The notes under the pieces were generated by a model, which saw only the letters and a list, made by a program, of their open reading frames with translations, did no database searches and had not been told where the DNA came from. A DNA stretch of 64,000 nt. Source: Caryophanales bacterium (GTDB lineage Bacteria > Bacillota > Bacilli > CAJFEE01). Positions 13,961 to 53,007 of the stretch are shown here, one piece after another; the stretch's first letter is position 1; every line of letters begins with the position of its first letter. The translations under genes were made by a program, and so were the position numbers. The stretch lies in contig JAQSYP010000001.1 of NCBI GenBank assembly GCA_029256085.1, positions 124,001 through 188,000 on the forward strand, in the 5' to 3' direction.

Positions 13961-13974
13961 AAACATTTAATAAA

Positions 13975-14010
13975 GACCTATAGTAATATACATTACTATG
14001 GGTTTTTTTA
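13975..14010 (+). terminator. terminator after ackA
   Basis: CCTATAGTAAT pairs with ATTACTATGGG, followed by a T-run. Confidence 0.85.
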
Positions 14011-14042: not shown

Positions 14043-14138
14043 GGATTATATATTTATAAAATGGCTTGAAAATTTTATAAAACGGATTAAAAAACTTGAA
14101 ATTCAGATTAAAAATTAAAAAAATGGCTTATAAATCGG
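14043..14138. repeat. 20-21-bp-period array upstream of the EcsC gene
   Basis: Units begin GGATTA (14043), GGCTTG (14063), GGATTA (14084), AGATTA (14105) and GGCTTA (14125), a spacing of 20-21 bp. They are separated by A/T-rich tracts. The GGATTAAAAA form also occurs in the arrays near 27844 and 47227. It runs almost to the ribosome site of the next gene. Confidence 0.65.
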
Positions 14139-14152
14139 GAGAGTGAATCCAA

Positions 14153-27638: not shown

Positions 27639-27773
27639 CTCTCGCAAAAACTGCTCGCTTTCCGCGGGCACGGCCTCAACTAATTTTTGCAAGTTCCACT
27701 TGCAAAAATGGATTTTCGGCTCGTGCTGTTACCGCTGGAGTCGAAGCAGTTTTTCTTCTTGCGATAAGTATAC
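27639..27773 (+). repeat. nested-palindrome repeat, copy B
   Basis: Outer arms CTCGCAAAAACTGCTCG and CGAAGCAGTTTTTCTTCTTGCG, middle arms GCGGGCACGGCC and GGCTCGTGCTGTTACCGC, and a central hairpin TTTTTGCAAGTTCCACTTGCAAAAA (given by position 27683-27707). Nearly complete. A small reading frame across it (27610-27804) is produced by the repeat and is not a gene. Confidence 0.85.
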
Positions 27774-27783
27774 TTATTTAAAG

Positions 27784-27802
27784 AACTTGGAAAAGCCAAG
27801 TT
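27784..27802 (+). repeat. AACTTGG hairpin
   Basis: AACTTGG-AAAAG-CCAAGTT, a perfect 7-bp stem, related to the hairpins at 3970 and 47385; no strong T-run. Confidence 0.5.
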
Positions 27803-27823
27803 AATTTTGAAAAAAAACTATTT

Positions 27824-27880
27824 CGAATAAAAAAATTATTTTTTGGATTAAAAAAATTCATCTCGAATTTCAGCTATTTT
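27824..27880. repeat. 20-bp-period array upstream of pfkA
   Basis: CGAATAAAAA (27824), TGGATTAAAAA (27844) and CGAATTTCAG (27864) are spaced 20 bp apart. This is a short and degenerate relative of the array at 47227. The rest of the 27880-27950 interval is AT-rich without a recognised feature. Confidence 0.5.
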
Positions 27881-39590: not shown

Positions 39591-39637
39591 AAGACTGTAG
39601 ACAAACTCATGCAATCGAGTTTGCCTCAGTCTTTTTT
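39591..39637 (+). terminator. terminator after phoR
   Basis: AAGACTGTAGACAAACTC pairs, with two mismatches, with GAGTTTGCCTCAGTCTT, followed by T. It is immediately preceded by the motif GACTTGGTAAAGAC (39582-39595), which recurs beside other arrays. Confidence 0.85.
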
Positions 39638-39685
39638 GAAATTTAAGAAAGTGTTGTTTTTAAATTTGGATTAAATAATGCGGAA

Positions 39686-39780
39686 AGTTAATGATAAGTA
39701 GTTAAAAGTTAATGATAAGTAGTTAAAAGTTAATGATAAGTAGTTAAAAGTTAGTGATAAGTAGTTAAAAGTTAATGATA
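39686..39780. repeat. 21-bp tandem repeat upstream of polA
   Basis: AGTTAATGATAAGTAGTTAA plus one A is repeated with starts at 39686, 39707, 39728 and 39749 (one base change in the fourth copy: AGTTAGTGA), and a partial fifth unit at 39770. The spacing is exactly 21 bp. The rest of the 400-bp gap up to polA is AT-rich; TATAAT near 39920 may be a -10 box, but I see no convincing -35. Confidence 0.92.
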
Positions 39781-39965
39781 TGCGAAGTATTATTGTCCCT
39801 TTGTCGACAATCTAAAACACTTATTGAGACAATTAGTGCTTTCTTATTCCATTTTATGGGTAAAATAAACCGAATACAGAAACCTAAGAGATATAAACAC
39901 AAATTTAGGAGGAAAATCTGTATAATATACTTATAAAAAACATTTAAAAAGGGGATTTTCCATAT

Positions 39966-46769: not shown

Positions 46770-47153
46770 ATGGATACTATGGGACGTCATGTAATTTCTG
46801 AACTATGGGGCTGTGACTTTGACAAATTGAACGATATGAAATATATCGAAGAAACATTTGTTAACGCTGCATTAAGAGCAGGTGCTGAAGTACGTGAAGT
46901 AGCTTTTCACAAATTTGCACCACAGGGTGTAAGTGGTGTTGTTATCATTTCAGAATCTCACTTAACTATTCATAGCTTCCCAGAACACGGATACGCAAGT
47001 ATTGATGTATACACATGTGGAGACATTATTGATCCTAACGTTGCTGCTGACTTCATCGCTGAAGCTCTATCTGCAACTACAAGAGAAAATATTGAATTAC
47101 CACGTGGTATGGGTCCTGTTCAGGTAAAACGTACTGAATCTAAAGCGCTTTAA
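46770..47153 (+). CDS. speD: S-adenosylmethionine decarboxylase proenzyme
   Basis: Provides decarboxylated SAM for spermidine. Pyruvoyl enzyme that self-cleaves between E62 and S63 ([17 protein letters not shown]); H68 and C83 (VYTCG), the other catalytic residues, are present. 127 residues, the short bacterial class 1B form. The ribosome site AAAGGGGG is part of the leader pairing described just upstream. Single-gene unit ended by a strong terminator. Confidence 0.96.
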
Positions 47154-47164
47154 AAAAGATAAGT

Positions 47165-47197
47165 AAGAGGTGTAATTAATTACACCTCTTTTTATTT
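47165..47197 (+). terminator. terminator after speD
   Basis: AAGAGGTGTAAT and ATTACACCTCTT form a perfect 12-bp stem, followed by T. Confidence 0.9.
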
Positions 47198-47226: not shown

Positions 47227-47365
47227 GGATTAAAAAACTTTAATTTCGGATTAAAAAATTTATATTTCGGATTAAAAAATTATATTTTGGATTAAAAACC
47301 TTATATTTTGGATTAAAAACCTTATATTTCGGATTAAAAAATTTTTTATTGGATTAAAAAGTTAT
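47227..47365. repeat. seven-unit 20-21-bp-period array upstream of nrdR
   Basis: GGATTAAAAA starts at 47227, 47248, 47269, 47289, 47310, 47331 and 47351: steps of 21, 21, 20, 21, 21 and 20. Units read roughly TATATTTCGGATTAAAAAAT. A-tracts fall on one face of the helix, so the segment should be bent. It lies between the speD terminator and the nrdR promoter. Confidence 0.9.
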
Positions 47366-47383
47366 TTATCCTTCACTCTCAGA

Positions 47384-47402
47384 GGACTTGGCAAAGACAA
47401 GT
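47384..47402 (+). repeat. GGACTTGGCAAAGACAAGT motif
   Basis: Same motif as at 3971, 27784 and 39582, here with an imperfect stem (ACTTG/CAAGT) and followed by ATATTTTGAA. Confidence 0.5.
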
Positions 47403-47431
47403 ATATTTTGAACGTGAAAAATTAATTTGTC

Positions 47432-47503: not shown

Positions 47504-47962
47504 ATGCGCTGCCCATCATGTAATTTTAATGGAACACGTGTATTGGATTCTCGCCCTGTCGATGATGGAAAATCCATTAGAAGAAGACGTGAGTGTGAAG
47601 AATGCCAATTTCGTTTTACTACTTTTGAGAAAGTAGAAGAATCGCCATTAATAGTTGTTAAAAAAGAAGGTATACGGGAAGAATTTAGTAAAGAGAAGAT
47701 CCTTAGAGGTCTCATTAGAGCCTGTGAAAAAAGACCAGTATCATTGAAACAACTTGAAGAAGTTGCGCATGATATCGAAAAAGAATTAAGAAATATTGGT
47801 ATTCCAGAAGTCGCTACAGAAAATATTGGTGAAATGGTAATGGAGCGACTAGCAAAAATAGATGAAGTAGCATATGTGAGATTTGCATCAGTTTATAGAC
47901 AGTTCAAAGATCTGAACGTTTTTATTGATGAATTGAGAGATTTAATAAACAAAGGTAAATAA
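47504..47962 (+). CDS. nrdR: ribonucleotide reductase repressor NrdR
   Basis: ATP/dATP-sensing repressor of ribonucleotide reductase genes. Zinc ribbon with CPSC (3-6) and CEEC (31-34), RRRREC block, then an ATP-cone (about 48-138). 152 residues from ATG 47504, which follows GGAGATGG; the upstream in-frame TTG (47489) is in the ribosome site. Stands before dnaB-dnaI, as in B. subtilis. Confidence 0.95.
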
Positions 47963-52814: not shown

Positions 52815-52945
52815 ATATATGGATTATGTTTGATAAAGTAGAAGCCCACGCTTCTCACCTGTCTGATAATTGAGTTAGCAGGTAAACGAGACAATTAATT
52901 TTAATTACTCGAGGTGTGGGCATATAATGCTCACACCTTTTTAGT
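52815..52945 (+). promoter_or_regulatory. L20-type leader and attenuator of infC operon
   Basis: A structured leader ends in a terminator stem GGTGTGGGC/GCTCACACC with T5 (52914-52943). In B. subtilis L20 binds the equivalent leader and promotes termination; position before infC-rpmI-rplT and the competing pairings around GTAGAAGCC/GGTAATTCTAC support the same here. Confidence 0.8.
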
Positions 52946-53007
52946 ATGTAAAAGGTAATTCTACTTTTTCAAACTACTTATGTAATATTCCCATGGAGGT
53001 GCTTACT

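Follow-up and report, generated by a model that had tools for sequence, protein, structure and literature searches.

The window, by which we mean the whole 64,000-nucleotide stretch of Caryophanales bacterium DNA analysed here, carries a tandem array of short direct repeats between speD and nrdR, arranged as follows.

46770-47153, + strand: speD, S-adenosylmethionine decarboxylase proenzyme-like open reading frame of 127 aa, whose 3′ end is followed by the array
47165-47196, + strand: speD intrinsic terminator, made up of hairpin AAGAGGTGTAATTAATTACACCTCTT and a T tract (from sequence; terminator finder score 26)
47227-47371, + strand: seven-unit array with core GGATTAAAAA and steps of 21, 21, 20, 21, 21 and 20 bp (from sequence and TRF)
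47504-47962, + strand: nrdR, an open reading frame ~130 bp 3′ of the seven-unit array

The upstream gene is one that we take to be speD from gene order and sequence. Within the array GGATTAAAA starts at 47227, 47248, 47269, 47289, 47310, 47331 and 47351, in exact agreement with the seven units and the succession of steps predicted originally, and TRF scores the repeat at 169-206. Since it starts behind the speD terminator, the array is better called a speD array than an nrdR array. Relatives of nrdR itself were found in 14 of 14 Bacilli (E 1e-45 or better). A dispersed small hairpin, of the ACTTGGCTTTAGTCAAGT type and followed by TTTATTTT, adjoins arrays at 27785-27810 and 47385-47410 of the window and at ~1830-1860 of another locus, L046.

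Other arrays lie elsewhere in the window, two of them with an intrinsic terminator on their 5′ side.

13974-14009, + strand: intrinsic terminator of an upstream kinase gene (acetate kinase-like; from sequence and terminator finder)
14043-14145, + strand: degenerate GGATTAAAA-family array, with units at 14043, 14063, 14084, 14105 and 14125
27824-27866, + strand: two-unit remnant or short array, CGAATAAAA plus GGATTAAAA, with a 21 bp step (from sequence and TRF)
39591-39637, + strand: intrinsic terminator of a phoR-like gene (from sequence)
39668-39683, + strand: single leader unit GGATTAAATAATGCGG preceding the second-family array (from sequence)
39684-39783, + strand: second-family array, 4.6 units of AAAGTTAATGATAAGTAGTTA at an exact 21 bp period, behind the phoR-like gene and upstream of polA

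The original prediction had placed the same motif at 14043-14138 and, in a shorter array, at 27824-27880. The former does belong to the same family and keeps steps of 20-21 bp, but its units (GGATTATAT, GGCTTGAAA, GGATTAAAA, AGATTAAAA and GGCTTATAA) are degenerate; the latter has the motif and the 21 bp step, but only two units are present. A fourth array, at 39668-39783, with a 21-bp period and a different unit, had been overlooked. Several arrays are abutted by a dispersed repeat of ~110 bp (CGCTTTCCGCGGGCACGGCCTCAACTAATTTTTGCAAG...GGCTCGTGCTGTTCCCGC), seen at 27640-27750 of the window and directly before arrays at L046 and L053. The sole Rfam match in the window is an L20 leader (RF00558) at 52830-52948, upstream of an infC-like gene.

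Searching the whole genome (2.63 Mb in 17 contigs) yielded 48 exact GGATTAAAA...GGATTAAAA pairs at 20-22 bp, falling into ~20 arrays, against 0 for the reversed-pattern control. Exact pairs at 16-19 bp were absent genome-wide, and the single pair at 23-39 bp lies within an array carrying a degenerate unit. When up to one mismatch per core was allowed in the 427 kb comprising the surroundings of the arrays and the window, the pair counts were 34 for a 20-bp step and 62 for a 21-bp step; other distances under 38 bp were nearly empty, and apart from the multiples 41, 62 and 83 bp hardly any pairs occurred at longer distances. The expectations that more arrays would be found in the genome, and that their periods would not be evenly spread, were both borne out. 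Nearly all of the 22 GGATTAAAA arrays extracted have 5-8 units (median 6, ~125 bp), and one has 11. Behind two different arrays stands almost the same 100-bp sequence (TTCTGTGGTTTTCG.TAGTCCACAGAAAAAGGTTAGGG...), at ~9943-10060 of L047 and on the minus strand of L062.

Each unit of this family consists of a core of ~10 bp and a spacer of 10-11 bp, with ~1.4-1.9 bits of information per position in the core and mostly 0.2-0.6 in the spacer. Identity between arrays was 0.86 in the core and 0.35 in the spacer, the random level being 0.34, and neighbouring units within one array reached 0.87 and 0.44, respectively; because units were recognised by their core, the core conservation in these figures is partly built in. 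The combination of conserved cores with random spacers calls for either selection on the core or machinery that reads it. Where six cores follow one another at fixed steps and the spacers show random identity (L052, L062, L054 and L057), the pattern does not look like recent single-unit duplication. Local duplications are present as well, as ABAB patterns in L054 and L057 and as identical units in L058. A mutual offsetting of consecutive 20 and 21 steps, which would be a mark of long-range phase keeping, was not significant (p=0.10 without L058).

In the GGATTAAAA family the upstream gene ends in an intrinsic terminator, and the array begins directly 3′ of it. A strict finder placed a co-oriented terminator no more than 60 bp upstream of 12 of the 22 arrays, compared with 51 of 400 random intergenic points, and 5 further terminator hairpins that its loop and mismatch limits had missed were seen by eye. 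Exceptions to the terminator rule occur in G254, one of the other Bacilli surveyed: the array at L102:1140, which begins 4 bp past a stop codon, and the one at L103, which lies between divergent genes. In the GGATTAAAA set of 22, there were 12 arrays in tandem intergenes oriented with the genes, 4 oriented against them, 6 in convergent intergenes and 0 in divergent ones; the orientation bias in tandem intergenes is only weakly significant. Across three genomes, convergent intergenes were over-represented (20 of 61 arrays versus 64 of 445 in the background, p=8e-4) and divergent ones avoided (3 of 61 versus 95 of 445, p=0.0015), with intergene classes resting on simple gene calls from open reading frames and codon usage, and the flanks of the GGATTAAAA arrays read by us. 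Terminators without arrays displayed no 10.4-bp signal on their 3′ side, so the element is optional.

The same genome contains further unit families. The second 21-bp family (AAAGTTAATGATAAGTAGTTA and variants) recurs at several loci besides 39684-39783 of the window, and its three-unit pattern gave 23 matches genome-wide versus 3 in the control. Three of its arrays open with one GGATTAAATA[AT]TGCGGAA-like unit, a hybrid linking both families, and a leader like GGATTAAATAATGCGG also precedes second-family arrays at L063:5379-5543 and L049:5506-5605 (minus strand). Three more 21-bp families (GATTCTATCGATCAAGTTTAC, GTACGGAAATTTTARATTTAC and CGGTTGATAGAAATGTAAATT), the first two lying directly behind terminators, were detected; counts of these further families come from stretches picked around GGATTAAAA arrays and are therefore not whole-genome densities. 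Random spacers under a step held at 20 or 21 bp, together with unrelated families that keep the period, uphold the earlier suggestion that phase matters more than sequence. A 28-copy repeat of 21 bp (TTGTAGTCGTACTTGAGCTTG) was also observed within an open frame at L059:7077-7678.

Periods were surveyed over 77 intergenic tandem arrays with periods of 15-75 bp from ten sampled genomes. In 65 of the 77, the period differed by no more than 1 bp from a multiple of 10.4 bp, versus ~21% of all periods, and the commonest values were 21 bp (n=38), 20 bp (n=15) and 52 bp (n=11). Arrays classed as coding had periods that were mostly multiples of three instead. Alternation of GC content along each unit was tested against permuted units. 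Only the second harmonic (~10.4 bp) was enriched among 21 merged families of 20-22 bp (8 of 21 at p<0.05, KS 0.005), and only the fifth harmonic (10.4 bp) among 10 families of 52 bp (6 of 10 at p<0.05, KS 3e-5); the 20-21-bp units are not a blind test, the hypothesis having arisen from viewing some of them, and the 52-bp set had not been viewed for this property beforehand. The other harmonics were flat in both sets, and random intergenic 21-mers and 52-mers carried a faint 10.4-bp signal at most. No k-mer, the ATAA-like motif included, was shared among the 31 families beyond chance.

For the GGATTAAAA arrays, the GC spectrum peaks at 10.3 bp and the A-tract spectrum at 10.2 bp. A wedge model, its parameters verified against standard examples of phased A-tracts, predicts more curvature in all 22 arrays than in their dinucleotide shuffles (mean z of 3.2, with 19 of 22 above 2), and with a second parameter set the curvature is less clear (mean z 1.8). 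Measured against permuted units of the same period, the excess is modest in the GGATTAAAA arrays, and the array beside polA and most of the GC-rich families sampled show none. Helically phased A-tracts and curvature above shuffles are features of intrinsically curved DNA that the GGATTAAAA arrays share, less strongly under the second parameters and the unit-permuted controls. The proposal that phased A-tracts bend the DNA thus holds for the phasing and for curvature relative to shuffles, but strong curvature did not emerge as a general rule; cooperative seating of a protein, proposed alongside, may occur. RNA folding gave no signal on either strand, which favours reading at the DNA level.

The surveys drew on samples of 40-430 kb from each genome. 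The GGATTAAAA pair occurred in none of the 120 relatives searched, and a looser pattern retrieved a few others among 398 relatives; the period itself, carried by other units, is present in other Bacilli. A motif-free spectrum of 8-mer recurrence peaked at 20/21, 41/42 and 62/63 bp in G338 and more weakly in G254, and had no such peaks in G014 or G001. TRF resolved at least eight unrelated 20-21-bp unit families in G338, a genome of 53% GC from another family, and several in G254, and the arrays of both again lie mostly behind terminators. Several draft contigs of G338 and G001 (L137, L139, L142, L153, L116 and L117) start within a 20-21-bp array, which suggests that draft assemblies break at such arrays and that short-read genomes may undercount them. 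Orthologous intergenes in G001, the only genome of the same family, held no array in the few places that were readable.

G095 and G254 are sister species in a single genus that replicate the two-turn spacing independently with another core. Pairs of CGCCAATAA at 20-21 bp number 85 and 93, respectively, against 0 in the reversed control, and at 22-39 bp 1 and 0. The two species share the position of one array, behind an EamA-type gene that is 94% identical between them; the cores and 21-bp steps of this array are preserved, and its spacers differ. Arrays in both genomes are opened, behind the terminator, by an inverted-repeat leader, AACTGGAAA...TTTCCAGTT. At L196, L199, L202 and L204 of G095 and at L102:12186-12222 of G254 this leader follows the terminator and precedes the first CGCCAATAAA unit, in the manner of a start signature. 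Intergenic units of 51-52 bp, or five helical turns, were observed at G254 loci L095-L114 (e.g., L098:16245-17201 and L100:16687-16839) and in G352 at L183:6590-6903. They form ten unrelated families with up to 18 units, several containing interrupted inverted repeats such as GACATTTC..GAAATGTC. Matches to a 3-unit pattern in named genomes were mostly unrelated tandem repeats, some of them coding (coiled-coil-like), and the same search found an intergenic array with a different unit in Peribacillus tepidiphilus. A match among viral contigs (L195) was an unrelated short repeat.

Known repeat systems offer partial parallels. CRISPR loci have repeats longer than 20 bp and unique spacers of at least ~26 bp, whereas the core here is 10 bp and the spacers are 10-11 bp and often duplicated. 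Plasmid-type iterons sit at one origin beside a replication initiator gene, whereas ~20 chromosomal arrays lie by unrelated genes. The Sal-box/TTF-I arrays of mammalian rDNA are short protein-binding sites behind the gene end that block the polymerase, there eukaryotic Pol I; our arrays would work the same way, an analogy of mechanism only. STAR elements of Staphylococcus are likewise direct repeats scattered through intergenic DNA, with a core that is conserved and spacers that differ from locus to locus, occurring as 1-7 units with a start signature, species-specific positions and no known function (PMC3532100). Their core, however, is 14 bp and GC-rich, T(G/A/T)TGTTG(G/T)GGCCC(C/A), compared with ~10 bp (GGATTAAAAA) in the GGATTAAAA family, and their spacers are 40-44 bp, compared with spacers of 10-11 bp at a period of 20-21 bp. 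The strict two-turn ruler, the many unrelated cores and the post-terminator position also set our arrays apart from STAR. BIME-2/REP repeats of E. coli resemble the arrays in lying at the 3′ ends of transcription units (PMC6379681), but REP units are imperfect palindromes, whereas GGATTAAAA units are direct repeats with no dyad symmetry and no folding signal. TAACTGA direct repeats of Beggiatoaceae are also abundant, short and intergenic, in 2-6 copies; they are heptamers mostly just upstream of start codons, with a proposed post-transcriptional role and, in the text consulted, no helical spacing reported (PMC4679880).

We propose that the speD array is one copy of a class of chromosomal elements that acts as DNA, forming a nucleoprotein patch on one face of the helix behind terminators and likely serving as a gene-end boundary, a reading that we regard as evenly balanced between right and wrong. 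The observations beneath it are the number, spacing and position of the arrays, the conservation of cores against random spacers, and a 10.4-bp phasing common to unrelated units. A whole-turn ruler, an AT/GC phase of 10.4 bp and placement at gene ends are together characteristic of DNA that is read on a single side, where successive grooves would face a bound protein or the DNA would bend round it. Core-plus-spacer units of two helical turns (20-21 bp), ~125 bp in all here and set behind intrinsic terminators, would turn every core to the same side of the helix, so that a protein complex could bind cooperatively or the DNA could wrap. The resulting patch behind the terminator would probably be used as a boundary that halts read-through RNA polymerase or holds the supercoils accumulating there. 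A cooperative binding protein would explain the letter-exact cores, and shape reading by gyrase or HU would explain the many unrelated families per genome; several unit families in one genome would need several sequence-specific proteins unless shape is what is recognised.

Taken on its own, shape reading would make the arrays wrapping sites for DNA gyrase (or HU), stretches of ~125 bp of phased AT/GC DNA 3′ of transcription units that absorb positive supercoils. E. coli gyrase sites are a direct parallel, being ~130 bp long, phased in GC content at 10.75 bp and enriched downstream of transcription units (PMC6379681). The arrays are ~125 bp long, phased at 10.3 bp, placed behind terminators and between convergent genes, and predicted to be curved, and families without sequence similarity are to be expected if shape is read. 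We nevertheless think this account unlikely: pure shape reading would not need cores conserved letter by letter within families, as GGATTAAAAA is, 20.6 bp per two turns (10.3 bp) differs from 10.75, and curvature is unremarkable in most other families sampled. The main alternative without function is a selfish or passively spreading repeat, multiplied by a copying process of unspecified kind and kept behind terminators since insertions are harmless there, with no gain to the host. Lineage-specific families, visible local duplication of one or two units (ABAB in L054 and L057) and the common leader AACTGGAAA..TTTCCAGTT that starts G095 and G254 arrays, as in dispersed elements, are what such a repeat would leave. 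Its probability is low but appreciable in our view, because a core identity of 0.86 beside random-level spacers needs core selection or core-reading copying machinery, and because slippage should give many periods and does not explain why several unrelated families all hold to two turns.

Two other accounts fare worse. The repeats might act in read-through or 3′ UTR transcripts as sites for an RNA-binding protein or Rho, as would be allowed by an unstructured array transcript and by the shared direction of most arrays and their upstream genes (12 of the 16 in tandem intergenes). This is highly improbable given that the two-helical-turn ruler and 10.4-bp phasing are properties of DNA, that the arrays sit behind the terminator rather than before it, and that they give no folding signal and no Rfam match. 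We think it least probable of all that the array regulates the nrdR promoter as an operator or bent upstream sequence. A plausible -35 element does follow it at a distance of ~65 bp, but the GGATTAAAA family sits behind many unrelated genes, in at least 6 cases convergent ones with no promoter following, and the nrdR genes of 14 other Bacilli showed no array on their 5′ side.

The pattern first noticed at this locus is real and functional-looking, and neither its link to nrdR nor bending as such is the general rule. Our preferred reading of a one-face nucleoprotein boundary leads to a wider proposal, held tentatively and rated below an even chance, that Bacilli carry a previously undescribed class of elements: post-terminator arrays in whole-turn units (two-turn and five-turn) with lineage-specific sequences of fast turnover and a conserved 10.4-bp phase, acting as nucleoprotein boundaries at gene ends. 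No description of such arrays was found in the literature searched, which covered a minority of subscription journals. The finding of wider interest is that helix-quantised arrays of unrelated sequence stand behind terminators in several Bacilli. If the proposal is true, gene ends in many bacteria of the class would be marked by DNA that holds its helical phase even as its sequence is replaced. The arrays would then make it possible to study directly how supercoiling and read-through are kept in check between genes, and would constitute a natural experiment in which many unrelated sequences have been selected for one DNA geometry.
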